A DNA stretch of 64,000 bases from NCBI GenBank assembly GCA_001898485.1, contig MKTY01000020.1, positions 496,001 through 560,000 of the forward strand, read 5' to 3'. The notes below the pieces were generated by a model that was not told the origin of the DNA, made no database searches, and saw nothing but the letters and a program-made list of their open reading frames with translations. The DNA comes from Sphingobacteriales bacterium 46-32. Lineage in GTDB: Bacteria; Bacteroidota; Bacteroidia; Chitinophagales; Chitinophagaceae. The translations under genes and the position numbers were made by a program. Shown here piece after piece: positions 701-14,738 of the stretch; positions within the stretch are counted from its first letter, which is position 1; every line of letters starts with the position of its first letter.

Positions 701-1393
701 CTATTTCCGGTCATCGATTGTCCAGGCATAGTCATCGAAATAAAGAGGAGGAACAGATCGCTTACCCGCTGCTTCCCGAAGTTGGGCTTGTAAACGATAA
801 TACGTTGTTCTATCCACGCTCTTTATCGAATTAGGCACATCTTTGATTTGAAAAGATCGAAGCGAAACGAATATTTTCTTATCAAATGGAACGTGCAGAA
901 AATGCCTGACCTTTTCACTGGCTGTAGTAGAAAAATAGGGACTGAAAAAAACAAGATGACCAAGAAATAGGTTCAAAATTTTGGCTGCATGGCCATAGCG
1001 GATACCTTCCTCTCCTATTTCCGCCAGATTATTCCCAAAGCCGGATATGCTCTTCGAAACTTTACCCAGTTGCGTCTTATGCCAGCTGTCAAACAATTCT
1101 CTTGTTTTGAGAGCTGGTAACTCATCGACATCAATTTTCTGTAAACAATCAAAAATGGCCAGCTTGGTACCAGCAGTAAAAACACGAATTACAGAATTAG
1201 GGAGTATTATTCTAGCTACCCGTTTTTTACAATACTCTCGATAGGCTTTACCATCCTGAAGATGTTTGAACACAGCATCAAGATCCTGAAACAGCATTGT
1301 TTTGGACATCCAGTTGAATTTATCATGAAGAATAAGGTTGTATAGCCGGATACGGATGTAGGTTTCATTACGCCTCTTCAAAATAGTCGCCAT
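701..1393 (-). CDS. Unknown protein paired with Mrr endonuclease
   Basis: A 230-residue soluble protein, not recognised. It is basic near the N-terminus and appears mostly helical, with no signal peptide, membrane segment or clear catalytic motif. Its C-terminus reads PPLYFDDYAW. The start overlaps the end of the mrr-like gene upstream by 26 bases, so the two are almost certainly co-expressed. Context suggests a restriction-associated accessory role such as target recognition or immunity, but nothing in the sequence proves this. The 290 bases between it and the toxin-antitoxin genes contain no clear gene. Confidence 0.65.
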   Translation of the reverse strand: MATILKRRNETYIRIRLYNLILHDKFNWMSKTMLFQDLDAVFKHLQDGKAYREYCKKRVARIILPNSVIRVFTAGTKLAIFDCLQKIDVDELPALKTRELFDSWHKTQLGKVSKSISGFGNNLAEIGEEGIRYGHAAKILNLFLGHLVFFSPYFSTTASEKVRHFLHVPFDKKIFVSLRSFQIKDVPNSIKSVDRTTYYRLQAQLREAAGKRSVPPLYFDDYAWTIDDRK

Positions 1394-2288
1394 CCAGCCG
1401 CTTTATCTCATAGGTACGCTGTAATGAAACGCCAAGGTTGTGATCAATCATGAGCTGGGCCAGTTGCACGCCATCGATCAACACAATTTTCGTTTCGTTT
1501 TTGGGTGCATAGCCAAGCGCATCCTTCGTGAAAGAAGAGGTGGTAATAAAAATGCCCTTTTTAGCCCCCTGTCCGGCAAGTGCTCCTACAAATTTTTGGA
1601 GTTCAGGCCGCCCTACTGTATTACCCGCCTGCCAGCGCTTGGCCTGGATGTAAATAATGTCGAGGCCGAGTTTATCTTCCTTAATGATGCCATCAATACC
1701 TTCATCACCTGTTTTACCCATGGCCCGGCCAGCATCTTTGATAGAGCCACCATAACCCAACCTCACCAGCAACTCTACCACCAGCCTTTCAAAAAAAGCC
1801 GGACTCATGCTGCAAACAGTATCGAGCAACTCCTGCGCCAGCGACTGGCGAATACTTAAATAAGCTTCATCAATTGTCTCCTCCGGGGTCTGCTTCTCTT
1901 CCAGGGAGGAGCCAACAGCACTGGCCTCTTCCACCCTGTCATTCTTAAGATTCTGAAATTCTAAAAATTCCGGAAACTGTTTCAGCAGATTATTGTCGAT
2001 GCGAGTTGGTTTACTTTTTAAAATATCGAGGCCGCGGGGAGTTATGGCTACCACACCCCGTGCCGGATACTCAACCAGGCCGGCTTTCTTCATATAAGTT
2101 CTGGCCCAACCAACCCGGTTGGTAAATACAAAGGCCTGACCGCTGGAAAGCAGCTCATTCATTTCTTCTTCTGAAAGCCTGAACTCCTGCCCCAAAATGG
2201 CAACGAGTTCCTTTAGTTGATGATTCTTTCCGTCACTCAACTGCCTCAGCAGCGGCAGCATGATGGTTTGATAGTCGGGGATGGGCAT
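1368..2288 (-). CDS. mrr: Mrr-type type IV restriction endonuclease
   Basis: A 306-residue protein with the two-domain layout of Mrr. Residues 1-90 form a winged-helix Mrr_N domain (MPIPDYQTIMLPLLRQLSDG and the ITPRGLDIL wing). Residues 160-290 form a PD-(D/E)xK nuclease: FFERLVVELLVRLGY, then GDEGIDG with Asp199, then YIQAKRW with Gln215-x-Lys217, the QxK variant typical of Mrr. The family cuts DNA carrying foreign methylation. It lies 181 bases downstream of the HNH gene and overlaps the next gene by 26 bases. Product assignment is strong; the methyl-target is unknown. Confidence 0.88.
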   Translation of the reverse strand: MPIPDYQTIMLPLLRQLSDGKNHQLKELVAILGQEFRLSEEEMNELLSSGQAFVFTNRVGWARTYMKKAGLVEYPARGVVAITPRGLDILKSKPTRIDNNLLKQFPEFLEFQNLKNDRVEEASAVGSSLEEKQTPEETIDEAYLSIRQSLAQELLDTVCSMSPAFFERLVVELLVRLGYGGSIKDAGRAMGKTGDEGIDGIIKEDKLGLDIIYIQAKRWQAGNTVGRPELQKFVGALAGQGAKKGIFITTSSFTKDALGYAPKNETKIVLIDGVQLAQLMIDHNLGVSLQRTYEIKRLDGDYFEEA

Positions 2289-2469
2289 AAACTCATTCTT
2301 TTATCTATACTATCTATATTTTCAGTTATCAGTTTTTGTTTCCACAGCATCGTTTCTTACTTCGAAGTGCGGTGTAGTGAAATTACGCAGATACACAAAT
2401 AACAACTTAAACAAATTTGTTACAGATTTCTCAAGATCAGCTAATGTTTTGAACAACACATATAAACCG

Positions 2470-3510
2470 CTAAAACCGCGAATACCTTACCGCCTCACTT
2501 CTAGCAGCTTTATCAAACGAATCAATCAAAACTGCCATTGCTTGGTATTCAAGCTCTTTTCTATTTTTTAATTGATTCAAATAAGCCATTTTTCTTTTTT
2601 CGTAATCTGGAATTTCAGCAACCACATCCTTATCAGTAATTGTTTTATCGAAAAACTCATACCATTTTCTAATATTTCCATTTACATGTGTTTGATGCCG
2701 ATTTTCAATGTTGTAGATATCCAACCAAGCTTTTAGCTCTTTATTCTTTGCATCCTTATTAGAGTATTGAATATTCCACTGAATTTTTGAAATATCATTT
2801 TGGTGATTTTTCTTAATTGATATACTAATATCAATGCCTTTATGTTTTTCATCAAAAGGATAAAAAACTACGCCAGAATATTTTAATATATCCTTATTGC
2901 TTTTAACTTCAATTGAATTACAATCAATGCAAATTGGCACAAGGTTCCTAAAGTTGACGGAGGAATAGGGATATACATCTTTCGGCAGATAGTGATCATG
3001 TTGATCTTTCTTTTTGTCATCAGCGTTTTTCATTTCAACCAGACCACAAGCCGGACAAAACTCGAAGTCGTTGGCCTTGTCTTTACGTACCATATGGTAG
3101 TGATCTTTCAAACTACCATATTTTGCAATAAAGTATTTCCCTTTGATTACATCGTCGTACAAAGAAATGAACAAATCCTGTACTAACGGCATCATGGTTG
3201 CCGGTATGGAAGCTGTTTTCAATGGAATGCTTTTCCCTCCGCATATATTTTGTATCTCATTACTGTCCCTGATCGCCTTACAAAACTTCGTTCTTGCTGC
3301 CTGTGTCAAAGTTTGTGTTATAGCGTAAATGTCCTTAAATCGTTTACCTAATATTTTTCGATGATGTACTACCAGCTCATCGTAAAACTCTTTTTCGTAA
3401 AACGAGTTATCAAACGCACCTGTTTCAAACTCTATCCGGTTAAAAAAAGCCATTACAAACTCATGCAGTTTGCTGTGTGGAGTATCAATGTATTTATAAG
3501 TTTTTATCAT
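2470..3510 (-). CDS. HNH endonuclease partner of the AAA ATPase (PtuB-like)
   Basis: A 346-residue protein with a zinc-supported HNH centre at residues 150-200: CPAC (Cys152, Cys155), HDHYLPKDVYP (His171, His173), NFRNLVPICIDCN with Cys194 and Cys197. This is the C2-H-C2 HNH layout seen in nucleases that pair with SMC-like ATPases, for example PtuB of Septu. Its ATG overlaps the TGA of the upstream ATPase gene by four bases, a strong sign of translational coupling and of a two-protein complex. It ends the hsd operon. HNH nuclease assignment is strong; membership in a Septu-like module is inference from architecture. Confidence 0.8.
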   Translation of the reverse strand: MIKTYKYIDTPHSKLHEFVMAFFNRIEFETGAFDNSFYEKEFYDELVVHHRKILGKRFKDIYAITQTLTQAARTKFCKAIRDSNEIQNICGGKSIPLKTASIPATMMPLVQDLFISLYDDVIKGKYFIAKYGSLKDHYHMVRKDKANDFEFCPACGLVEMKNADDKKKDQHDHYLPKDVYPYSSVNFRNLVPICIDCNSIEVKSNKDILKYSGVVFYPFDEKHKGIDISISIKKNHQNDISKIQWNIQYSNKDAKNKELKAWLDIYNIENRHQTHVNGNIRKWYEFFDKTITDKDVVAEIPDYEKRKMAYLNQLKNRKELEYQAMAVLIDSFDKAARSEAVRYSRF

Positions 3511-5369
3511 TTCCTTCTTACTGCTTTTTTCTTAACCGCTTTGCGGGAAGTCCGGCCTATTACAGAATTCTTTGCAGTGGTCTTTTTGGCTGCCCTGCTT
3601 ATTGTCTTTTTCTTTGCTACGCTTTTCTTTACTGGCTTTTTTGCAACCTTCTTTTTTGAGACAGCTTTCCTTTTAACACGTTTAGGCTTTCTCTTCTTAA
3701 ACTCATCCTCCAGCATCAGCAGCTTTCTGAACAATAAGGTTTTTTCTACAGAGTCACCCAGTATCCTTGCATCTTCTTTGGCCTCTTGTATTTGAGCGAG
3801 ATTTTTAAACTTCCTGCCTTTAATTTCATTAAGGATAGCCAATGAATAATCTGCAATACTCTCATTTTTATTAAATACCTCTTCCGTAAGTACATTTACA
3901 GAAGCCCCAAAAGTGTTCAAGCGTTTTTGTGCAGCTGTTTCGACCGTCATTTTATTACCCTGGCGGTTAAAAATGTAAACATTGTTTGGCTTGCAGTCTG
4001 ATATAATGAAAGGGGAATGTGAAGTAATAAAATAATCCTGTTCGTTATTATTATTTTCATTGTTCTGCATAATGAGGCTGATCATTTTGGCCCGCCATTC
4101 CGGGTTAAAATGCGTTTCCGGCTCATCCAGTATAAAAAGAACATCGCCCTCCTGCATCAGCATAAGCGTACCCATTACGTGCAATAATTGATGTTCTCCA
4201 TCGCTTAACTGCTTGTAAGCAACAGGCTCGTTAGTATTGGTCTTCTTAAAAAGTATATTATCAATTTTAAAAACAGTTTCTTCCGCTGATGGCCTGGGGA
4301 TCAAATCACTAAGATTGGTTCCTTTAGGGGCATTCTTTATTGAGTTTCTTGTCGCATTTGTATAGCAGTATATATTCAGCAAGCGAAGTAAGTAAAGCAA
4401 CCGGAATAACTCTGCCGGTGTTTTAAATAAGTTCCTGAATGCGCTTCGTACAGCCACATCTGTAAAAAAATGCAACTCTATCACCCGATCCCTCAAAGAT
4501 TTCGGGCTTTCCTTGTCCAGTACGTTTTCATTATCCGTCCAGACGCTGGCACATTTCTTTAATTTTTCAATGCCAACATATAGCTCAGATGGTAGCTCTA
4601 TAAAAGCTTTTTTATGGTCCCGAAACTGAATTCTGATAGAAAACGAATGCATGTGATCAATGCGCAGCTTTTTATTAAAAGCAATACGGTCTTTCCAGTA
4701 TAGCAAACTGTTTTCCTGGAATAAATAATTAGAAAGTAAAACAAGCTGATTACTCTCATAATCCATAAAGAACATCCGGTTTACATCCAGGTCTCCGGAA
4801 ACATTGATGCTGCTGCGCCTTTTCTGAAATTCTTCAAAATAATGAAAGTCGAGTTTTATGAATGGATTGCTGATGAGTTCATTTTGTCCGCTGCTATAAG
4901 CTACTATTCTGTTGGGTAGAACAAAACCTATTTTATCATTGGGTATATTAAATTCCTGGTTATAAGATGCATAATAAGCTCTGCAATTAATTTTTTCTCC
5001 AACAGGCTTTTTGAAATTAATAATGATGTTTTCCTTACCTAAATCTAGTTCCTTTAACTCTAATTGAGAAAATGCATACTGCCATTTTAAACGGCTAATG
5101 GTATATTCTATTTCAAAACTTAGTGAATGATATCGCTGGTTAATTTTGTTTAATTCCTTTTTACTGGCAACATTTTGTATTTCGAGATAATAGAATATTT
5201 CACAAATCACTTCCAACACATTGGATTTGCCGCTTCCATTTAAACCCACCAGGCAAACCGGCTCGTTAATATCTTCCGGCAAGTAATTGTCTTGCCGAAA
5301 ATGGAGTTCGATGCCTTCTTTTGGAAGTCCTCGAAATGGGCTTGCTATTTTAAGGCGGAGTAATTTCAT
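3507..5369 (-). CDS. Restriction-associated AAA/SMC-like ATPase with lysine-rich tail
   Basis: A 620-residue ABC/SMC-type ATPase. The Walker A motif GLNGSGKS is at residues 42-49. An ABC signature (LSDGEHQLLHVMG) falls near residue 395, Walker B (LFILDEPETHFNP) about 20 residues later, then an H-loop region ITSHSPFIIS. This resembles OLD/RecF-like ATPases and the family I recall as restriction-system-associated AAA ATPases. Residues 558-620 form a Lys/Arg/Ala/Val-rich, histone-H1-like tail, probably for nonspecific DNA binding. The start overlaps the hsdS stop and the stop overlaps the HNH start, both as ATGA. It likely powers or gates the HNH nuclease, as PtuA does for PtuB. Confidence 0.82.
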   Translation of the reverse strand: MKLLRLKIASPFRGLPKEGIELHFRQDNYLPEDINEPVCLVGLNGSGKSNVLEVICEIFYYLEIQNVASKKELNKINQRYHSLSFEIEYTISRLKWQYAFSQLELKELDLGKENIIINFKKPVGEKINCRAYYASYNQEFNIPNDKIGFVLPNRIVAYSSGQNELISNPFIKLDFHYFEEFQKRRSSINVSGDLDVNRMFFMDYESNQLVLLSNYLFQENSLLYWKDRIAFNKKLRIDHMHSFSIRIQFRDHKKAFIELPSELYVGIEKLKKCASVWTDNENVLDKESPKSLRDRVIELHFFTDVAVRSAFRNLFKTPAELFRLLYLLRLLNIYCYTNATRNSIKNAPKGTNLSDLIPRPSAEETVFKIDNILFKKTNTNEPVAYKQLSDGEHQLLHVMGTLMLMQEGDVLFILDEPETHFNPEWRAKMISLIMQNNENNNNEQDYFITSHSPFIISDCKPNNVYIFNRQGNKMTVETAAQKRLNTFGASVNVLTEEVFNKNESIADYSLAILNEIKGRKFKNLAQIQEAKEDARILGDSVEKTLLFRKLLMLEDEFKKRKPKRVKRKAVSKKKVAKKPVKKSVAKKKTISRAAKKTTAKNSVIGRTSRKAVKKKAVRRK

Positions 5370-7072
5370 TTGGCTTTATCTGTTTTATTTACCAGAAACC
5401 AAATACTTCCCTCGCCGGAAAACTCAGGGCCACCCGGAGGATTAAATTTGGGATGCCGTATAGCCTCCATCCATTCTTTAGTGGCATAGTATTGCACCAG
5501 TTCTTTTTGCTCCAGCTTTTGAAAAATAAACTCTTTTATTTCTTTAGCTGTATAAGCAATCTTTTCAGTTTTTAAAGCACTTTCGAATTCACTGAAGCCA
5601 AAACCTGTGTTTTGCTTTGAAAAAACCTCATTAATGATTGCATTCCCTTCAAGAGAATTAAACTTTATCGTGGTCGGTCTTAACCCACTGCGTTTTGACT
5701 GTAACCAAACAGATTCATTTTCTTCTTCAATAGTTTTACCATGCAGCCGTAACCATTCATTGTAAAACCAAGCCCCTTGTTTTTTGGCAGTAACCTCATC
5801 TACTTCAAATGGGTCGCCATAACTGGTGTCTTCTTCATCAGTTTTGGGTTGTTTATCAACTATTCCGGCCTGTTTTCTGCCTTTTAGTAACTTTTCGATT
5901 TTTTCATCAATAACCTTGGATTTTATACGATTTAAATCCAAGTCACCTTTAAATGCCTTTTGACTTATCGAATTATATAAATCCTCTAAGTATTCCAAGC
6001 TAATTTTGAGCTGGTCGTTAAGAATGTCTGCCTTCTCAACTATTTTGGTGAATTTTTTTTGCAGTTCAATTGGTGGAATCAATATTTTTATTTCATTAAT
6101 TTTTTTAAGAGTCAAACGCTGGATAGCACCGCCAGCCATCATTTTAAGAACTTGTTCCTTAACACTCTTATTATTCAACCAATAGCATAAATAAACAGGA
6201 AGGCACATATTTATTTCAGGACGCAGCAATGCCAGGCTAGACAGCATACTAAATTCAAAATCGTACTTATTAACTGCTGCAAAACCTGTAGTTGCTCCAT
6301 CCTTAATATAAATCACATCCCCCTTTTTAGGATCACATCGTTTATAAATTTCCGCATGATTTTCTTCTGATATAAACCAAGGATTCGCCCAAAAGTCTAT
6401 CTTGTTTTCTCTAACATGTTTTGCAGTTAAATAGGGTTTCCCTGTTTCTACTATAGGCGGAGAGAAATGAGTACCATCTGTTATTTTATTACACACTTGG
6501 CTCAAATTCATTTTCTTCCAACCCCTTTCATTCTTCACCGGATCTCCAAACATTTCTGCAAACACACTCTTTACATATTCCTCCAGCAGTTTTATGCCTT
6601 CTTTACGCTTGTTTATCAGTGCTTCTGCTTTACTGAGTAGGGTTGCAATGCGGATTTGGTCTGCAAAAGTGTTCGGTAACGGGATAGGGATTTTATCAAG
6701 AGCAGTTCTTGTGAGTTTACCTCTAGTTGTACCTGTTATGAAGCTATTGAGATTTGCATAGTTTAGATAGTATTTTATATAATCAAGGTATGCTTTGCCA
6801 TTTTCAACTAAAACATGGGCATGGTTGTTCACCCATGTTTTGCCTTCATATATGACAGCGCATTGTTCTCCTGCTCCCCAACTCCCGCCATCCTCTGCCA
6901 CACACAAAATTTTCTCATCAAAAATATACTCGTTAATAAAGCCAACAATATTATTCGCCCCAATATATGGATACTCCCCATCTATACTCTTAGCCTCCCT
7001 TTCAATTGAATTAAGAGGAATCCGTTTATTATCGAGATTCTTAACAATATTTCCTAATCGTTCAAATTTCAT
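5366..7072 (-). CDS. hsdS: Type I restriction-modification specificity subunit HsdS with C-terminal extension
   Basis: A 568-residue protein. Residues 1-160 form a first target-recognition domain, then a helical spacer (RKEGIKLLEEYVKSVFAEMFGDP). A second recognition domain runs from about 185 to 345 (ITDGTHFSPP, GDVIYIKDG), and a second coiled coil ends near 390. Both halves end in the typical LPPIELQKKF / PLPNTFADQIRIATL-like segments before the coils. Residues 395-568 are an added domain not needed for a normal HsdS of about 400 residues. The neighbouring ATPase and HNH genes suggest it is an adaptor for them. HsdS sets the DNA sequence recognised by the HsdM/HsdR complex. An 85-base gap separates it from hsdM. 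Confidence 0.9.
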   Translation of the reverse strand: MKFERLGNIVKNLDNKRIPLNSIEREAKSIDGEYPYIGANNIVGFINEYIFDEKILCVAEDGGSWGAGEQCAVIYEGKTWVNNHAHVLVENGKAYLDYIKYYLNYANLNSFITGTTRGKLTRTALDKIPIPLPNTFADQIRIATLLSKAEALINKRKEGIKLLEEYVKSVFAEMFGDPVKNERGWKKMNLSQVCNKITDGTHFSPPIVETGKPYLTAKHVRENKIDFWANPWFISEENHAEIYKRCDPKKGDVIYIKDGATTGFAAVNKYDFEFSMLSSLALLRPEINMCLPVYLCYWLNNKSVKEQVLKMMAGGAIQRLTLKKINEIKILIPPIELQKKFTKIVEKADILNDQLKISLEYLEDLYNSISQKAFKGDLDLNRIKSKVIDEKIEKLLKGRKQAGIVDKQPKTDEEDTSYGDPFEVDEVTAKKQGAWFYNEWLRLHGKTIEEENESVWLQSKRSGLRPTTIKFNSLEGNAIINEVFSKQNTGFGFSEFESALKTEKIAYTAKEIKEFIFQKLEQKELVQYYATKEWMEAIRHPKFNPPGGPEFSGEGSIWFLVNKTDKAK

Positions 7073-7157
7073 TTGTTCCTTTTATAAGCTCAATAATAGT
7101 ATAAGCGATGAAAGTATTGCGACGCAACGATGCTGCTATGGAAAACCGGTGCCGGTA

Positions 7158-8726
7158 TCAAAACATTTCTTTTAACTCTTCAATACCTTTTACTATTTCA
7201 TTTTCAATATTACTCAGCCGGGTTAATATATCCTTTGGTTTATCGTATTTCACTTCCTCATAAACCTCTTCTTTATACTTACTTAGGCTTAAATCGTAAT
7301 CATTTTCAACAATTTCCGTTTTAGGGATAATAAAATGCTGCTGGATGCGGTCAGTGTTCTTTTTCTTCTTTTTAAATTCGTTAATGATATTCTGGAGGTC
7401 GCCATAGTCACGTTCGCCATTGGATTTAAATAACTCATTTCGCTTATCATCCAGGCTGCGGCCATCATTTTTCATTTCGTAAAACCAAACATTCTCTGTG
7501 GCACCCGCCTTTGTAAAAATAAGTATGGCCGTTGCTACCCCGGCATAGGGTTTAAACACGCCGCTGGGCATGGTAATTACGGCCTTCAGTTCGCATTGCT
7601 CTACCAGTATTTTACGGGCTTCTACAAAGGCTTTACCGCTGCCAAACAATACGCCCTGGGGTACTATTACACCAGCAGTACCGCCCTTGCGCAGCATTTT
7701 ATAAATACGTTCAATAAAAAGTAGTTCGGTTTTGCGTGTATCTAAGGTAAATGTGGGGTTTATCTCGCCTTTATCAAGGCTGCCGGTAAAAGGCGGATTG
7801 GCCAGCACTACGTGATAGTGTCCGTCTTCATTATAATGCTTACTCAGTGTATCGCTATAATCAATTTTCGGGTTTTCAATGCCGTGCATCATCAGGTTCA
7901 TCAGGCCCAGGCGAATCATGGTAGGGTCAATATCAAACCCATAGAAAGTGTCTTTTTGTAATTGCTCTTTGGCGGCAGTGCTTACCAATTTATCGGCCAT
8001 GCTGCCCCGCATAAAGCCATTGTCATCTTTTGAAATGTAAGTATCACTTGTAAACTGCGTAATAATATATTTTAAGGCAGCCAGCAGGAAACCCGCAGTA
8101 CCACAGGCAGGATCCGCTATCCGGTTGCCCAGTTTTGGCTCCACCAGTTCCACCAGCAATTCAATAATATGGGTAGGCGTGCGGAACTGCCCGTTTTTAC
8201 CGGCCTGGCTCAACTGACTTAGCAGGTATTCGTACACATCGCCCTGTGTATCTATAAACCGGTCTTCAGTTTTTATTTGCTTGTACAGTTCATCAATTGT
8301 ATCCATTGCCTCTTTTAACAGGCTGGCCTTGGGTATCAGAAATACTGCATTAGCCATGTGTTTGGCAAAGGAAGAATCGGTTTCTCCCAGGTCACGGATA
8401 AAAGGAAAGACCTGCGTTTGCATTTTGCGGAAAATGTCATCAGATGGACCACGGTTTACATTGCTCCATCGTAAATCGTTTTTCTTAATGGCATTTTCTT
8501 TTATTCTTTCAACGCCCGGCGGATAGTACACGCCATCAAAAACGGATTTGTATTTTTCGCCTTTAAAATCTGACTTGCGGCGTTGTGAAACATCGTTTTC
8601 ATCCAACTGCTTCATAAAAAGCAGGTAAGTAATTTGCTCAATAGCATTCAGGGGGTTGGAGATGCCGCCGCTCCAGAACTTATTCCAGAGGTCGTTTACT
8701 TTTGATTTTATTGCGGGAGTGAGCAT
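7158..8726 (-). CDS. hsdM: Type I restriction-modification DNA methyltransferase subunit HsdM
   Basis: A 522-residue N6-adenine methyltransferase. It has an HsdM_N helical domain (residues 8-150, starting KSKVNDLWNKFWSGG), SAM-binding motif I DPACGTAGF at 205-213, and catalytic NPPF at 310-313. This is the usual length for the family. It starts 1 base after the hsdR stop, so the two are coupled. It methylates host sites and forms the core enzyme with HsdS. Confidence 0.95.
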   Translation of the reverse strand: MLTPAIKSKVNDLWNKFWSGGISNPLNAIEQITYLLFMKQLDENDVSQRRKSDFKGEKYKSVFDGVYYPPGVERIKENAIKKNDLRWSNVNRGPSDDIFRKMQTQVFPFIRDLGETDSSFAKHMANAVFLIPKASLLKEAMDTIDELYKQIKTEDRFIDTQGDVYEYLLSQLSQAGKNGQFRTPTHIIELLVELVEPKLGNRIADPACGTAGFLLAALKYIITQFTSDTYISKDDNGFMRGSMADKLVSTAAKEQLQKDTFYGFDIDPTMIRLGLMNLMMHGIENPKIDYSDTLSKHYNEDGHYHVVLANPPFTGSLDKGEINPTFTLDTRKTELLFIERIYKMLRKGGTAGVIVPQGVLFGSGKAFVEARKILVEQCELKAVITMPSGVFKPYAGVATAILIFTKAGATENVWFYEMKNDGRSLDDKRNELFKSNGERDYGDLQNIINEFKKKKKNTDRIQQHFIIPKTEIVENDYDLSLSKYKEEVYEEVKYDKPKDILTRLSNIENEIVKGIEELKEMF

Positions 8727-8727
8727 A

Positions 8728-11523
8728 TTATGCAGCTAGTTTTTGTATAAATGTTATGATATCTTCTATTTCTTTATCTGAGAAAACGCCCAGTATTCCG
8801 TCCGGGTGTATCCGAGTAAATGGAGCGGTAATTAAATCCCGTTTTTCTACATCGCCTTTTTCAATTAAAAAAGAACGCAGCAGATTCATGAATTCAAGTT
8901 GTTTGGAGTTCAGGTAGCTGTGTTCCGCAATGAACTCATCGAAGGATTGTGATACAGTTTCGGGAAACGTTTTCAGTATTTCAATACCGAGTATATGTTT
9001 CAGAAATTGTACCAGTTGAGCTTTTCGATGATTATACACCCTACGAAGCAAGTCCACTGTAATATGAGGATGTTCGTCATGTAATTGCTCTGCCAGCAAT
9101 TCCGCCTCTTCGCTACTGATTTCCTGGCCCTTTTTTAATTTTTGCAATAAGGGGCTGGCTGCTACCAGTGCGTTTATTTTTTCTTCTACCAGGTCCCGGT
9201 AACGGGCTATACTCAGGCTTTCATGCTGTGGCCCAAACTCCACATATTCCTTGCTGTGTACAAAGTCCTGAAGATTAAATTTGGCAGGGCCCAAAGGCAC
9301 TACAAAGGACTCCCGGTAATGCATTAAAGGAGCCAGTTTTTCAATCAGTTCATCAAACTTATTTTCATTGATGGTGGACCAGTAGTGATTGGTTTGGCTT
9401 TGGCGTATCAGTTCTTCCTCTTTGGCTACAATATTAACAGATAAGGGTAGTTCGCCTATTTCTTCCACAATACTTTCTTTCAGGGTTTCAAATTTATCGT
9501 TTTCGCCTGCCAGGTGCGCCAGCGACACTTCCACAATATCTTTTTCAAAACGCATGGCTTTAAAATCGGTAGTGGATACTGTGCGGAACAAAGGTTTCAC
9601 AACAGTTCTTAAAAATTCAATTTTATCTGGGGAAAGATGCGTCCAGAAATTTTCATCTTCCAGTCTTTGCAGTTCATTTTTTGCATCCAGTATCACTACA
9701 GAGTTTTGGGGTAGTTCAGTAATCTGCTTTCTCAGCTTGCCCATTTCTTTGGCTGCTGTTTCATTTTTCTGAAGTTCAATTGCTTTTTCAATTTTATCCA
9801 GGCGTACGCCAAACAAACGAACCGGCAACGGTATTTGTGCCTTTATTTCTTTGCCACGGGGATTGAGTTTAAAGTATTCAAAGTTATCCCAGCAGTCCAG
9901 TATCAGAAATTCATCTTTTTCCGTGCACCAGGGTTTTATTTTATCCTGCTCCAGCAAACGGGTACCCCGACCGATCATTTGCCAGAATTTTGTATAAGAA
10001 TACACAGGTTTGGCAAATACCAGGTTGGTGAGTTCTCTTATATCCACACCAGTATCCAGCATATCCACGCTAATGGCAATACGGGGCATGTCCCGGTTGG
10101 TAAACTGATCGAGCAGGCCGCCCTTTCCATACACCCGTGGGTCATCGCTTACCAGCACTTTCGCCAGCTCACCTTTATATTCCGGATACAAAGCATCAAA
10201 GATTTGTTCTATCCTTCTGGCATGTGCCTTGGTCATACAAAAGAAAATGGTTTTACCGGGCAGTACCCCATTGGCATCTTTGATACACTCTTCCATAAAC
10301 TCCCGAACAATGAGTGCATTGGTACCCCGGTTGATCACTTTCTTTTCAATGTCTGTTCCTTCATAATTAATCTCAGCTACCTCTTTTCCTTCCAGTATCA
10401 GATGCTTTTGATCTTCGAGTGAAATGGTCCGTTTATTAATGCCTTCCTCCTGGAACTTTGTTTTAATTTTCATTACCTGGAAGTTGCAGAGGTAGGGAGG
10501 AATATGGTTTACCGCTTCATCGTAGGAATAGGCAAAAGTGGGTACGCCATCTTCACATTCAAACAATTGAAAAGTATTGTGGTCAATTACATCGGTTGGC
10601 GTGGCAGTAAGTCCTAACGTAATACAATTAAAGTAGTCCAGAATTTCCTGGTAGGTATTATAAATGCTACGGTGACTTTCATCCACGACAATCAAATCAA
10701 AAAAGTGTGGAGATAGTGGATTGTTCTCATCCCGGATAATATTCAGCATCGTTGGGTAGGTGGATACATACACCCTGCGGTCGGTACTGATTTCTCTCTC
10801 CGCTTGCTTTGGCCAGCGTGGTTCGTTGGGCAAATGCTCTTTAAATGCATCGAGGGTTTGATCCCTCAGGGCTATTCGGTCTACCAAAAACAAAGTTCTT
10901 TCAATCCATCCTCCACGCATTAACGCATCCACCAGTGCAATACAGGTTCTGGTTTTGCCGGTACCGGTGGCCATCACCAACAGGAATTTTCTTTTGCGCT
11001 TTTCAACAGCTTCCATCACGGAACGGATTGCTGCAATTTGAAAATCTCGACCAGCAATTTTAGTGTTTATTAGTTCACTTGCCAGGCTTTTTCGGGCTTT
11101 GCGGATATAACTGTACCGTTCTAAATCTTCCCTTGTGGGAAAGCCATGTATTTTTTTGGGTGGATAATTTTCCAGATCCCAGAAATAAATATCATGACCA
11201 TTGGTATAGAAACAAAATGGTAAATCGCCACCTTGCTCAGATTGTATGTTATAGCAATATTGCTTGGCTTGCTCCCGCCCGATGGCAGCATCAACGGCTG
11301 TTTTTTTAGCTTCCACTACAGCCAGCGGTTTGCCATCTTTTCCTAACAAAACATAATCGCTGTATTGGTGCCCTCCATAGGGTGCAGGAGCTTCCTGTAC
11401 CAGGTTTTTGTCAACAATAATGTCAAACTCCTCAATTACCTGGGTCCGGTCAGCAACATTCCAGCCGGCTTTTTTAAGCCGGGCATCAATAATTTGCTTG
11501 CGGGTATGTTTTTCGGTATTCAA
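8728..11523 (-). CDS. hsdR: Type I restriction endonuclease/translocase subunit HsdR
   Basis: A 931-residue protein. The N-terminal nuclease has the pattern Asp56 ... VVEAKK (Glu71-x-Lys73). The SF2 motor has Walker A MATGTGKT at 184-191, a DESH box at 281-284, TLGLTATPTD and the late motif MIGRGTRL. The long C-terminal part resembles the EcoEI R C-terminal domain. It translocates DNA and cuts unmethylated foreign DNA together with HsdM and HsdS. It is the first hsd gene, 25 bases after the XRE regulator. All motifs are intact. Confidence 0.95.
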   Translation of the reverse strand: MNTEKHTRKQIIDARLKKAGWNVADRTQVIEEFDIIVDKNLVQEAPAPYGGHQYSDYVLLGKDGKPLAVVEAKKTAVDAAIGREQAKQYCYNIQSEQGGDLPFCFYTNGHDIYFWDLENYPPKKIHGFPTREDLERYSYIRKARKSLASELINTKIAGRDFQIAAIRSVMEAVEKRKRKFLLVMATGTGKTRTCIALVDALMRGGWIERTLFLVDRIALRDQTLDAFKEHLPNEPRWPKQAEREISTDRRVYVSTYPTMLNIIRDENNPLSPHFFDLIVVDESHRSIYNTYQEILDYFNCITLGLTATPTDVIDHNTFQLFECEDGVPTFAYSYDEAVNHIPPYLCNFQVMKIKTKFQEEGINKRTISLEDQKHLILEGKEVAEINYEGTDIEKKVINRGTNALIVREFMEECIKDANGVLPGKTIFFCMTKAHARRIEQIFDALYPEYKGELAKVLVSDDPRVYGKGGLLDQFTNRDMPRIAISVDMLDTGVDIRELTNLVFAKPVYSYTKFWQMIGRGTRLLEQDKIKPWCTEKDEFLILDCWDNFEYFKLNPRGKEIKAQIPLPVRLFGVRLDKIEKAIELQKNETAAKEMGKLRKQITELPQNSVVILDAKNELQRLEDENFWTHLSPDKIEFLRTVVKPLFRTVSTTDFKAMRFEKDIVEVSLAHLAGENDKFETLKESIVEEIGELPLSVNIVAKEEELIRQSQTNHYWSTINENKFDELIEKLAPLMHYRESFVVPLGPAKFNLQDFVHSKEYVEFGPQHESLSIARYRDLVEEKINALVAASPLLQKLKKGQEISSEEAELLAEQLHDEHPHITVDLLRRVYNHRKAQLVQFLKHILGIEILKTFPETVSQSFDEFIAEHSYLNSKQLEFMNLLRSFLIEKGDVEKRDLITAPFTRIHPDGILGVFSDKEIEDIITFIQKLAA

Positions 11524-11548
11524 GAAATTGGCCTAATCTAAAGGATAA

Positions 11549-11767
11549 TTAATTGGCTTTCAATTTCAAATCGCCGTACAAAGTATTCATTACTTCACAA
11601 GGCTCCACCCCAATTGCCAGCGCAATAAGATACAACTCATCTGCCCGCAATTTTGCTGAGGGATTCAGGGTAAGTTCACTTAATCGCGGCTTGCTCAAAC
11701 CCGTTTTCCTGGCTACCTCTGACTTATTTACCGATTTAGCGAGCAGATATTCTCCCAGCTTTGTCAT
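11549..11767 (-). CDS. XRE-family regulator of the restriction operon
   Basis: A 72-residue protein that is essentially a single Cro/C1 helix-turn-helix (KSEVARKTGLSKPRLSEL, followed by ELYLIALAIGVEPCEVM). It is the first gene of the hsd operon, 25 bases before hsdR, as for controller proteins that delay restriction until DNA is methylated. Upstream, ATTCT-GAAA-AGAAT (11782-11795) and a related TTCAGAAAATCTG (11819-11831) are candidate autoregulatory sites; these are weak, hand-spotted matches. The role as controller is inference from position and size. Confidence 0.78.
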   Translation of the reverse strand: MTKLGEYLLAKSVNKSEVARKTGLSKPRLSELTLNPSAKLRADELYLIALAIGVEPCEVMNTLYGDLKLKAN

Positions 11768-11970
11768 TGATTATTAAATAGATTCTGAAAAGAATTACTG
11801 AAGCAATATAAAAAAGTTCAGAAAATCTGTAAATAAATTTGCTGGCAGTTTTAGATTTATGTAAGTTAGTACAGAATTTCTTTAAATACTTAACCCTTTT
11901 ATGAAATCTAATTACAACAATTCAAGCTGATCCAAGCTTCAACATAGTAAAAGCGTATTCGCTTTATTCA

Positions 11971-12139
11971 CGCACTGAAAACTACGACCTTTCAATAACG
12001 GCGGAATAAATAAGGTGAATCGCTCGCGTTTTCCTTCTTAACTTGAAGGTACAGGCGTGGGCGTTCTTATTTCGTCGTTAGGGTGTCGTAGCCCTTCAGT
12101 GCGATAAGGACCTACCCACGTCTCTTTTTAGTGGGTAGG
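11971..12139. ncRNA. Large nested stem-loop plus second hairpin: possible structured RNA or leader
   Basis: Nested complementary arms are visible: CGCACTGAA (11971-11979) with TTCAGTGCG (12095-12103); CTACGAC (11982-11988) with GTCGTAG (12085-12091); TAACGGCGGAATAA (11996-12009) with TTATTTCGTCGTTA (12067-12080, two G-U pairs); CGCTCGCG (12021-12028) with CGTGGGCG (12056-12063, two G-U); CCTTC (12033-12037) with GAAGG (12045-12049). A second hairpin follows, CCTACCCAC (12111-12119) with GTGGGTAGG (12131-12139). It lies between divergent genes. The strand is uncertain, but the G-U pairs fit an RNA read on the plus strand towards the gene at 12220. I do not recognise a known class. Confidence 0.5.
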
Positions 12140-12219
12140 CCTGCCAGCCCGTAGCTCCCTTACACTGCAGTACTGGTAAAACAGATCACTTATTACGTCA
12201 CCCACTAAACTGTGTAAGC

Positions 12220-12738
12220 ATGGAAAACGCGCGCCCCGGCCGGTTTCATAAACCCGACCATTTTTTAACCCTCGCCACTGCCAGCCCGGTACGGGCACTG
12301 GCAGATATCATAGACACCTACACCCTCGATGATCTGCGCCAGGAGCTGGCCCTCTGGCAGGAGCTTGCTCTCTGCAACGACGATAGCGCCTACGCCGAAG
12401 CACCTGCCCGCGAAAACCTGCTGGCCTTCTTACAGGCCTTTCAAAGAACCATCGAAGCCCTGTACGCTACCCGGCTCAAAAAACTGAACTATCAATCACC
12501 AGCCCTCGCAGCACTCAACACACCCAGCCTGCTCACCCTGCAGGAGCAGGCCCAGCCCATGCCGGTCATCCGCCAGTTTGCCGAGACCTTCACCGCTGCC
12601 TACACCCAGGCCGAACTACTCGACCTGCTCGAGGCTGTGATCAGCTACCGGGGCAAAAAGAAAATACAACTGGGGAGTGTTGTGTTCTTTTATCAGCGGC
12701 TTTGCCTGTTGGGTAATCTGGTTTATAAGATGCCGTAG
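12220..12738 (+). CDS. Unknown helical protein, GC-rich orphan in the defence island
   Basis: A 172-residue protein, not recognised. It is leucine- and alanine-rich and appears all-helical, with no signal peptide, membrane segment or catalytic motif. Its codons strongly favour C or G at the third position, unlike the AT-rich restriction genes on either side but like the core gene at 56164-57207, so it probably belongs to the host genome rather than to the acquired genes. The start follows the structured region at 11971-12139 by 80 bases. It ends 7 bases from the convergent ATPase gene. Function cannot be inferred. Confidence 0.65.
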   Translation: MENARPGRFHKPDHFLTLATASPVRALADIIDTYTLDDLRQELALWQELALCNDDSAYAEAPARENLLAFLQAFQRTIEALYATRLKKLNYQSPALAALNTPSLLTLQEQAQPMPVIRQFAETFTAAYTQAELLDLLEAVISYRGKKKIQLGSVVFFYQRLCLLGNLVYKMP

Positions 12739-12745
12739 AGCCCCT

Positions 12746-14311
12746 TTACGCCTCGAAATTATTTAGAGCAACAGGAAATATTATGCCATCCGTAGTTGCA
12801 AGACAACCGCAATACTCTCTAAACATAGGCGAAAACGCAAGTAAGTCTGAATCTTCTATGGAGTTATGAATGTGAGTACTTAAATCATCTCCGACAAATG
12901 AAAACCGATATTTAATACGCTTAGTATTATTGTCTTTGGGTAACCGACTGTATACACCAAAAATCCCAAAGTCAAACAAGTCATCAAAAATTTTGTCAAC
13001 TTCACTAAAATCTAAATCTTTGAAAACTCTTCTGATCTTATCTCTGAACTTCGAAGACTCTATTATCATTGGCGACCCTTGCCATGATTTAAGAAAACTT
13101 ACTATGTTTGGATATATTAAAGAAAGTTGATCGGCTACTTTGTCAGCCATTAGTATATTGTTTTTTGCAATTACTTGAGGAATAAAACTCGGAGGAACTT
13201 TATCTGGACCCGAGGTTTGCTCATTCCATAATTTGAAAATATTTTGTACGTGGCTTAATATTTGACGCGGTCGATATAACGTGTGTCGAAGAATATATTC
13301 AAAAGTGTTTTCCTCAACATTATGCACACTATTCATAACTTTCTCGGGCATGAATTCATTCCATATATCATTAAATTTTGTTGAGCGCTTTTTGGAATAA
13401 ATGCTTAATCTTTTCTCCAGGAAAATTTTAAAATCCTCTTCATGCCAACCTAGGTAATGAATGTTGTTTGCATGTTTATCGCTATCCCACGCCGTTGCTT
13501 TGGCGTCTGCTGTCAACTCGTGAGGCAAAAAAGCTTTAAAACAAAATGCTTCAGAGATTTCGTGATTTAGACGGATTTTAAAAATGGCATCAATTAAACC
13601 CGCTAATATTGTCCTCCGGGATTCCTTAGAATGATCAACAATCGAGTCAAAACCATCCAGGCAAACTAATACCTTTTTCTTGGTTCTTTTAATACACGCT
13701 ATTGATTCGCTTAGTACTCCTGTCATATTTTTATTTACAGGAAACTGACTGATTATATGTTGCTGCTCCGGGGTCACATTGGTCAATGTTTTTTCTTTAT
13801 AAACGGGTGCTGATACGATTTTGTGAAAGATATTTTCAATCGTATTTAATATTTGCAAATAAGAGTCAGGACTTGAACTAACATTAGCTTTGTCCACAAA
13901 GCCATCCTCATTCAATATTTCTACTATCCTTCGTTTAAGGTCACTTCCCTTATCAAGGGTATCAACAAAAGATAAAAGGCCATAACTTAAAATAATATTC
14001 AACCAAGTTGTACGTGCTAAGGTTGTAATTTCAGTATATGACATAGACGTCAAAGCACTAAGTCGATGATGAACGCCTTCAAAGCTGATATTTCCTAAAT
14101 CTATTGTTATTGTATTTAAATAGTTTTCAGTATTAAATTCTGTAAGAGCTCTTCTCAAAGCTGTTTTACCAACACCTTTTGCGCCATAAATAATATCAGA
14201 ATCATAAGAAGTGATCCTTCGCAAATATTTCGTCTCAATAAAGTGCTGAGCAAAGTATTTGTCTTCTTCTGCACTCAGGGTGCCCAAATCAATTGCGTTA
14301 GGAGTAAGCAT
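12746..14311 (-). CDS. P-loop ATPase, Sll1717-like, second gene of a membrane-protein pair
   Basis: A 521-residue soluble ATPase. The P-loop is GAKGVGKT at residues 43-50, and the Walker B-like strand VLVCLDGFDSI is at 214-224. The long C-terminal part is helical (YILRHTLYRPRQILSHVQN resembles the sensor/lid region of STAND-like ATPases), with a probable winged helix near 410-450. I recognise it as close to the family called P-loop ATPase Sll1717. It starts 7 bases after a small four-helix membrane protein gene. That arrangement suggests a sensor ATPase controlling a membrane effector, as in abortive-infection systems. The defence role is inference from context. Confidence 0.72.
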   Translation of the reverse strand: MLTPNAIDLGTLSAEEDKYFAQHFIETKYLRRITSYDSDIIYGAKGVGKTALRRALTEFNTENYLNTITIDLGNISFEGVHHRLSALTSMSYTEITTLARTTWLNIILSYGLLSFVDTLDKGSDLKRRIVEILNEDGFVDKANVSSSPDSYLQILNTIENIFHKIVSAPVYKEKTLTNVTPEQQHIISQFPVNKNMTGVLSESIACIKRTKKKVLVCLDGFDSIVDHSKESRRTILAGLIDAIFKIRLNHEISEAFCFKAFLPHELTADAKATAWDSDKHANNIHYLGWHEEDFKIFLEKRLSIYSKKRSTKFNDIWNEFMPEKVMNSVHNVEENTFEYILRHTLYRPRQILSHVQNIFKLWNEQTSGPDKVPPSFIPQVIAKNNILMADKVADQLSLIYPNIVSFLKSWQGSPMIIESSKFRDKIRRVFKDLDFSEVDKIFDDLFDFGIFGVYSRLPKDNNTKRIKYRFSFVGDDLSTHIHNSIEDSDLLAFSPMFREYCGCLATTDGIIFPVALNNFEA

Positions 14312-14318
14312 ATTATCC

Positions 14319-14738
14319 TTATTTAGACTGTTGCAATAACTTTGAACCAGTAATTAGTACCAAAAATTTCATTGAAGAGACTATAAAAAGTACTATCCGA
14401 ATAACTATAGCGCTTATTGTTTCTTCTTCAAGAGATAAATATGCATTGATCGTTGATCCAACAATCAGAATCAGGCTAAGAATTGAAATCAATCCAAAAA
14501 TTGGCTCAAATATTCTCCCTCCGCTCTTTTCTAACGAGCTCCGATATCTACTGATGCTTATAAAGGCCAAAAAAATTGTCGCAATCGACCATTCAGGTGT
14601 AGTAATAAAAACAATCCAGCTTTTTTTATGTATTGCTTCTAGCATAACATAAATAGCAACAGGCAGGGTAACAATCAAATACTCATACAATGCGGTCCAA
14701 AAACCTTTTCTGAAATTTTCTGAAAACTGTTTAATCAT
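14319..14738 (-). CDS. Small four-helix membrane protein, partner of the Sll1717-like ATPase
   Basis: A 139-residue protein with four predicted membrane segments near residues 18-35, 41-62, 80-103 and 108-132, separated by short charged loops (RSSLEKSGG between the second and third). There is no signal peptide or known enzyme motif. It is the first gene of a two-gene unit, 7 bases before the ATPase. Small multi-pass proteins next to a sensor ATPase in defence islands often act as membrane-disrupting effectors; here that is only a hypothesis. I do not recognise the family. Confidence 0.7.
   Translation of the reverse strand: MIKQFSENFRKGFWTALYEYLIVTLPVAIYVMLEAIHKKSWIVFITTPEWSIATIFLAFISISRYRSSLEKSGGRIFEPIFGLISILSLILIVGSTINAYLSLEEETISAIVIRIVLFIVSSMKFLVLITGSKLLQQSK

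Follow-up and report, generated by a model that had tools for sequence, protein, structure and literature searches.

A PtuAB-like ATPase-HNH pair joined to type I restriction-modification genes, with HsdR as an optional member

What are genes for an ATPase and an HNH nuclease doing in an operon for type I restriction-modification? The question is raised by a locus of Sphingobacteriales bacterium 46-32, lying at positions 2,470 to 11,767 of a 64,000-nucleotide (nt) stretch of contig MKTY01000020.1, which is referred to as the window. A preliminary description of this locus, made from the sequence alone, proposed a single six-gene system in which methylation status or recognition by HsdS could gate a second nuclease. 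Comparison across genomes revealed that the conserved core is HsdM-HsdS-ATPase-HNH and that HsdR is a dispensable, optional member. The four-gene set is a real, widespread unit and probably a functional one. In it, type I restriction-modification is joined to a PtuAB-type effector, and only the tie of the ATPase to restriction has already been named in databases.

All six open reading frames (ORFs) of the preliminary description were found at their positions on the minus strand. They are listed here with two notable segments (aa, amino acids; HTH, helix-turn-helix; K+R, lysine plus arginine):

2470..3510, minus strand: HNH nuclease, 346 aa, with a PtuB-like predicted fold (translation, alignment, fold comparison)
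3507..5369, minus strand: ABC/AAA ATPase, 620 aa, PtuA-like, NCBIfam TIGR04435 restrict_AAA_1 (profiles)
3510..3698, minus strand: Lys/Arg-rich tail of the ATPase, residues 558-620 (63 residues, 32 K+R counted)
5366..7072, minus strand: HsdS, 568 aa, with two target-recognition domains and a C-terminal extension (Pfam Methylase_S)
5369..5938, minus strand: C-terminal extension of HsdS, 190 residues past the usual end near residue 378 (sequence, predicted structure)
7158..8726, minus strand: HsdM N6-adenine methyltransferase, 522 aa (N6_Mtase, E = 2.1e-62; HsdM_N, E = 7.9e-12)
8728..11523, minus strand: HsdR restriction/translocase subunit, 931 aa, TTG start, EcoEI/EcoAI-like (ResIII, E = 2.5e-41; EcoEI_R_C, E = 2.5e-26)
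11549..11767, minus strand: XRE-type HTH regulator, 72 aa (Pfam HTH_26, E = 4.2e-7)

The identities first given to HsdR, HsdM, HsdS, the HTH protein and the ATPase are backed by Pfam and NCBIfam. The domains expected of type I restriction-modification (nuclease/translocase, methylase and target recognition) are predicted in the window HsdR, HsdM and HsdS; Methylase_S matches HsdS in two stretches (Pfam, E = 2.3e-31), and the motifs NPPF in HsdM and EAKK and TGTGKT in HsdR were spotted by eye. The operon had been said to run without a break, which is partly correct: the ATGA overlaps of hsdS with the ATPase gene (5366-5369) and of the ATPase gene with the HNH gene (3507-3510) can both be read on the minus strand, but 85 nt separate hsdM from hsdS, and 25 nt separate the XRE gene from hsdR.

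A search using the window ATPase placed it in TIGR04435 (414.3 bits against a cut-off of 300, profile positions 1-565 of 568), a family named 'restriction system-associated AAA family ATPase', which agrees with the preliminary statement that databases link such an ATPase family to restriction. The ATPase also matches the PADLOC model PtuA1 (PDLC00293, E = 2.5e-52), as a PtuA-type ATPase should, and its Pfam matches are AAA_21 and AAA_15 only. Its best solved relatives by profile are the PtuA chains of retron I-A, which match in the C-terminal part only (E = 4e-11). A search against phages with this ATPase gave one partial match.

The window HNH protein has no Pfam match, and its match to NCBIfam TIGR02646 is below threshold (E = 0.0087; 16.1 of the required 52.15 bits). 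The HNH motifs CPxC, DH and CxxCN are nevertheless intact, and the zinc or catalytic residues C152, C155, D172, H173, C194, C197 and N198 are invariant in all 84 aligned homologues. The PADLOC PtuB1 model matches the window protein weakly (E = 8.1e-7) and 80 of the 84 homologues at 1e-5; the PADLOC candidate PDC-M01B fits the window protein better (E = 6.4e-14). The structure predicted for the protein has a mean confidence (predicted local distance difference test, pLDDT) of 87.3, and a fold comparison ranked PtuB chains of retron Ec78/Eco7 first to sixth (Z = 7.5-8.6, 10-12% identity), with the next unrelated chain at Z = 4.5. The likeness to a Septu PtuA/PtuB pair noted at the outset is thus carried for the ATPase by profile and for the HNH protein by predicted fold, the latter being the weaker evidence.

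The linkage of the pair to hsd genes was examined first within the phylum, where 296 genomes were searched with the ATPase model at its curated cut-off and eight passed. The other seven phylum loci all have the order hsdM-hsdS-ATPase-HNH; hsdR is adjacent in four and lacking in two, and one locus lies at a contig start. A full-length HNH was found in the same eight genomes and in none of the other 288; the HNH model included those eight, and the absence from the other 288 is the informative part of this co-occurrence. Nine further genomes gave only short or weak HNH matches, which in two of them (G185 and G248) are a 74-position C-terminal stump. The G185 stump (L184:9397-9741) adjoins HsdM, with HsdS and the ATPase gone, and the locus seems to have lost the module.

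Species genomes were also scanned with the ATPase alignment, and the best 80 of at least 523 relatives were taken. With two loci from viral contigs added and three repeats dropped (L075, L082 and L090, the same as L037, L039 and L036), 79 distinct loci were obtained. The HNH gene stands beside the ATPase gene in 78 of them, the exception (L132) lying at a contig end, and HsdS is present in 77, the remaining two (L125 and L134) starting inside the ATPase region. The ATPase and HNH genes are spaced between a 35-nt overlap and a 14-nt gap in 76 of 78 loci, with a 1-nt overlap in 48, and the HsdS and ATPase genes lie within 54 nt of each other in 75 of 77, with a 4-nt overlap in 37. The exceptions in spacing are L103, in which a RhuM-family gene lies between HsdS and the ATPase, and L106, where numerous frameshifts break up the genes. 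Module loci represent 11 named phyla. By these counts the ATPase and HNH genes are members of hsd operons, as had been proposed; the outcome named beforehand as refuting, that the pair occurs mostly without hsd genes, did not occur among the loci read.

The six-gene unit itself fared worse. A gene similar to the window XRE gene lies upstream of HsdR in only 1 of the 55 loci with upstream room, a count that covers genes like this XRE and that other HTH families would escape, and we rejected a six-gene unit with XRE as a fixed member. HsdR is also repeatedly missing while HsdM, HsdS, the ATPase and HNH persist.

Genes inserted between hsd genes were seen in L062, L080, L086, L093, L103, L107 and L112; they encode a YhcG/DUF1016 nuclease, RhuM, KilA-N and Bro-N proteins and a RecG-C-like ATPase with an HTH. 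More distant ATPase-HNH pairs adjoin a Type ISP restriction enzyme (L047:2515-9624), HsdR-HsdM-HsdS together with a McrB-like AAA_5 protein (L048) and an HsdR-like gene (L054). Given these contexts, pairs of this kind may have become coupled to ATP-dependent restriction on more than one occasion.

The status of HsdR was followed through the same loci. It was found in 57 of the 79 distinct loci; a contig end lies within 3.5 kb in 17 of the 22 without it, but not in the other five. Loci without HsdR are L041, L042, L058, L067, L074, L086, L130 and L135, L067 having no HsdM either in the stretch read. In a family search, 8 of 17 loci were also without HsdR, a set enriched for this absence because it comes from the family of an HsdR-less genome. 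Altogether HsdR is missing in 16 of 87 scored loci. In a tree of 102 ATPases (71 with HsdR, 16 without and 15 undetermined), HsdR status needs eight changes, at least six of them forced, that is, placed on well supported branches; this was a quick tree with support from the Shimodaira-Hasegawa-like approximate likelihood ratio test (SH-aLRT) only and with long branches, including that of the window. The order of genes also varies, as L247 and L250 are HsdR-less with HsdM after HNH. In the S-ATPase-HNH-M cassette of L250, a GmrSD-type enzyme (L250:13129-14862) directly follows HsdM. In Chryseobacterium pennae, a 1050-aa SIR2_2 protein (L058:3630-6782) ends 5 nt before HsdM, in the position of HsdR.

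HsdR-less loci might be decayed HsdRMS loci, and this candidate was rejected: a tblastn search of 15 HsdR proteins against 19 HsdR-less loci found no remnant at E = 0.05 and recovered all four positive controls. A full-length HSDR_N ORF was absent from 6 of 15 HsdR-less genomes (G296, G298, G300, G525, G519 and G577). The other nine hold another full-length HsdR-type ORF elsewhere (at least 779 aa), and in these nine HsdR may be supplied in trans. Both forms occur on complete plasmids, the four-gene form without HsdR in Priestia aryabhattai and Hymenobacter swuensis and the HsdR-containing form in Kovacikia and Sphingobium. Among 5426 E. coli genomes, 96 have the ATPase and 96 the HNH, the overlap of genomes being compared among the matches listed. 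A cognate HsdR (at least 80% coverage) was found in ten genomes, which are also the top ten of the ATPase list, and the other 86 of the 96 ATPase-bearing genomes are HsdR-less; 85 of the 96 genomes carry near-identical copies and are not independent. Two E. coli loci were read: L272 has HsdR, whereas L275 has none, lies on a conjugative element that also carries MobC and VirB genes, and encodes an HsdS with a tail match at 7e-34. Since some E. coli carry the HsdR-containing form and, more often, the HsdR-less one, the proposed role of methylation can be put to a direct test in a common laboratory host.

The module HsdS is longer than usual, ranging from 471 to 646 aa with a median of 525 (77 sufficiently complete proteins). 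As controls, we used 20 module-free stretches from the HsdR lineage to which the module loci belong, in none of which the ATPase was found; 11 HsdS could be measured there, and 10 of them are 373-429 aa. A tail profile built from one half of the tails recognised 80 of 84 held-out module HsdS and none of the 11 controls (E < 1e-3). The terminal domain of the extension has the common pattern YE-x-K-x-x-VF ... L-x-Q-x-FD. In a Pfam scan of the 77 module HsdS, Methylase_S matched 76 and every other family at most three, and the extension was rejected as a known Pfam domain. The window HsdS is predicted to consist of an ordinary HsdS body and a separate small helical/strand domain at about residues 474-561, with pLDDT of 80-89 across most of residues 470-530; the whole model matches a solved HsdS (7vs4_C, E = 1.9e-22), and ordinary HsdS fill its hit list.

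HsdS is present in 209 of the 296 phylum genomes. The eight best places of the tail model in these genomes are the eight module genomes, whose own tails trained the model. Of 16 further places one was read (G269), and it is not an HsdS; the protein resembles an NAD synthetase. Judged from sequence, the extension travels with the module and is absent from near HsdRMS loci without it. It would offer a physical handle for gating by HsdS recognition or by methylation, although such gating, like a role of the extension as a docking device for the ATPase, is an inference. In L254, HsdR-HsdM-HsdS is followed by a distant ATPase without HNH; the HsdS there is 389 aa with no tail match, and no Pfam family matches the 291-aa ORF that follows.

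How might these parts work together? The conserved gene set, the intact active sites, the PtuA/PtuB resemblance, the HsdS extension and the dispensability of HsdR were all observed here, and the reading that we favour, with moderate confidence, is a type I-derived defence with the core HsdM-HsdS-ATPase-HNH, in which a PtuAB-type effector is wired through HsdS and HsdR is an optional second effector. In type I enzymes, HsdM2S methylates host target sites and scans DNA. Here HsdM2S would mark self by methylating the host's own target sites. The HsdS extension would dock the PtuA-like ATPase, which would hold the PtuB-like HNH protein, as suggested by the linkage of the genes and by the extension occurring together with the module, and would thereby bring the pair to DNA. 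The pair would remain silent while all sites are methylated. The trigger may be unmodified target DNA or a phage disturbance of the complex, upon which the ATPase would change state and the nuclease would be freed, by analogy with retron-Eco7. The freed nuclease would then cut foreign DNA or host RNA such as tRNA, and HsdR, where present, would add classical restriction. In retron-Eco7, PtuAB is toxic and depletes tRNA-Tyr unless the sensor neutralises it, and one Septu PtuAB is reported to attack DNA (PMC11555353); another Septu cleaves tRNA-Tyr (PMC13096335). Because PtuAB relatives hit tRNA-Tyr or DNA, the target of the HNH nuclease may be either.

Pairwise distances correlate at 0.85 for ATPase-HNH, 0.81 for ATPase-HsdM and 0.72 for ATPase-HsdR, in favour of this reading, but the values are confounded by common host ancestry. 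Several other observations weigh against it. One control HsdS (L174) is 596 aa long without any ATPase, though also without a tail match. The window HsdS extension is among the four missed by the held-out tail profile (E = 0.13), and BLASTP of this extension against the near relative L086 gave no significant match. In the separate 17-locus set, 16 HsdS genes adjoin an HNH gene and their products are all 454-643 aa, but the tail profile recognises only nine of them. For the nuclease, the PtuB resemblance comes from a predicted model, its Z of 7.5-8.6 lies in the tool's warning range for common arrangements, Foldseek alone is not significant (E = 0.73), and a search of the PDB with the HNH sequence profile finds no PtuB.

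In related bacteria the ATPase-HNH pair persists where the classical cutting subunit is often missing, and this points to a defence whose second weapon is controlled by methylation marks. If the favoured reading is true, the methylation state of DNA can activate an effector distinct from the classical translocating nuclease, restriction-modification is linked to the Septu/retron family of toxin effectors, and the database annotation that ties an unexplained ATPase to restriction loci is accounted for. A stronger form, which we put forward only tentatively, is an HsdR-free immune system: HsdMS would mark self and sense non-self and would license the PtuAB-type effector via the new C-terminal domain of HsdS, with HsdR, or the SIR2-domain protein in the one Chryseobacterium locus, as a plug-in second effector. 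If this were true, the type I methylase would be a general self/non-self sensor carrying different killers.

The set was compared with known systems; the features of MADS, PrrC and Septu given without citation are general background. Like Septu, it has an ATPase-HNH gene pair, with an ATPase matched by PtuA1 and an HNH protein whose predicted fold may be PtuB-like. However, the Septu pair is free-standing, whereas the present pair lies next to HsdS and HsdM in loci with room (L067 being without HsdM in its stretch) and is not the two-gene system, and PtuB models match its HNH weakly. Retron type I-A (Ec78/Eco7; Septu type II in PADLOC) couples a PtuAB pair to a distinct sensor, a likeness to the arrangement proposed here, and provides the closest solved relatives of both the ATPase and the HNH model. 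Its sensor is a reverse transcriptase with multicopy single-stranded DNA (msDNA), whereas here a methyltransferase and a DNA-specificity subunit are found; none of the ten genes scanned with Pfam (window 701-14738) has a match to a reverse transcriptase domain. Type I restriction-modification of the EcoEI/EcoAI-like kind shares HsdR, HsdM and HsdS with intact motifs, but the present HsdS has an extra C-terminal domain, there are two more genes, and the core survives without HsdR. The methylation-associated defence system (MADS) also combines a methyltransferase, a specificity subunit and an AAA ATPase; membership was rejected because the scores for MAD2 (116.7 bits against 720), MAD3 (30.7 against 420) and MAD5 (31.7 against 400) are all far below the cut-offs. 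The name TIGR04435 covers the ATPase alone and not the HNH partner, the HsdS extension or the HsdR-less core. The partners given for Septu in the available part of the PADLOC paper (PMC8565338) are a reverse transcriptase and Hma, not hsd genes. We found no description of the combined set in full-text literature on TIGR04435 or on PtuA/Septu with hsd, in which few subscription journals were covered.

The alternative that survives best, though we consider it unlikely, is that the pair guards the restriction enzyme as PrrC guards EcoprrI, lying latent on HsdRMS until a phage inhibitor releases it and the HNH kills the cell, for example by tRNA cutting. EcoprrI-PrrC follows the same genetic logic, a nuclease with an ABC ATPase inside an hsd operon. 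PrrC, however, is a single ABC-ATPase anticodon nuclease polypeptide guarding a complete HsdRMS, whereas here there are two separate proteins and HsdR is dispensable. PrrC sits within a type IC locus and becomes active upon inhibition of EcoprrI by T4 Stp (PMC12707154), and tRNA-Tyr is depleted or cleaved by PtuAB relatives (PMC11555353, PMC13096335), all of which would suit a guard. Many cassettes nevertheless have no HsdR to guard, and six of the 15 genomes concerned have no full-length HsdR. The ATPase, moreover, matches AAA_21 and AAA_15 and not AAA_13, presumably the family of the PrrC ATPase. Because the HsdR-less form exists, a pure PrrC-like guard of restriction is less likely; it is possible that the pair guards the methylase itself.

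Two further readings are less likely still. In one, which we regard as improbable, the pair helps HsdR by processing the DNA that HsdR has translocated or cut, hindering repair. Such a helper fits the retention of HsdR in 57 of the 79 distinct loci and the distant pairs beside other ATP-dependent restriction enzymes (Type ISP in L047, HsdR-like genes in L048 and L054), but not the repeated absence of HsdR. The other, an independent Septu-like two-gene system riding uncoupled in hsd operons of a defence island, is very improbable: free-standing ptuA-ptuB pairs are known (PMC8565338), defence genes cluster and an Mrr enzyme adjoins the window locus, yet no locus with room showed the pair without HsdS, the full-length HNH occurs in the same eight of 296 genomes as the ATPase, the genes overlap in an order kept across unrelated phyla, and HsdS is extended only when the pair is present.

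The window ATPase has one peculiarity of its own. Its Lys/Arg-rich, histone-H1-like tail was found in none of the 82 other loci scanned, the criterion being more than 30% K+R within the last 50 residues.

The surroundings of the locus contain further candidate defence genes. Just downstream of the HNH gene lies an Mrr-type (type IV) restriction enzyme (window 1368-2288, minus strand), overlapped by a 230-aa ORF without family matches (701-1393, minus strand); together they make up a small defence island. On the other side lies a Sll1717-family P-loop ATPase (window 12746-14311, minus strand; 171.9 bits against a cut-off of 75), which also weakly matches the antiphage model DS41_1. It is adjoined by a 139-aa protein without matches (14319-14738, minus strand) that appears to be membrane-bound.

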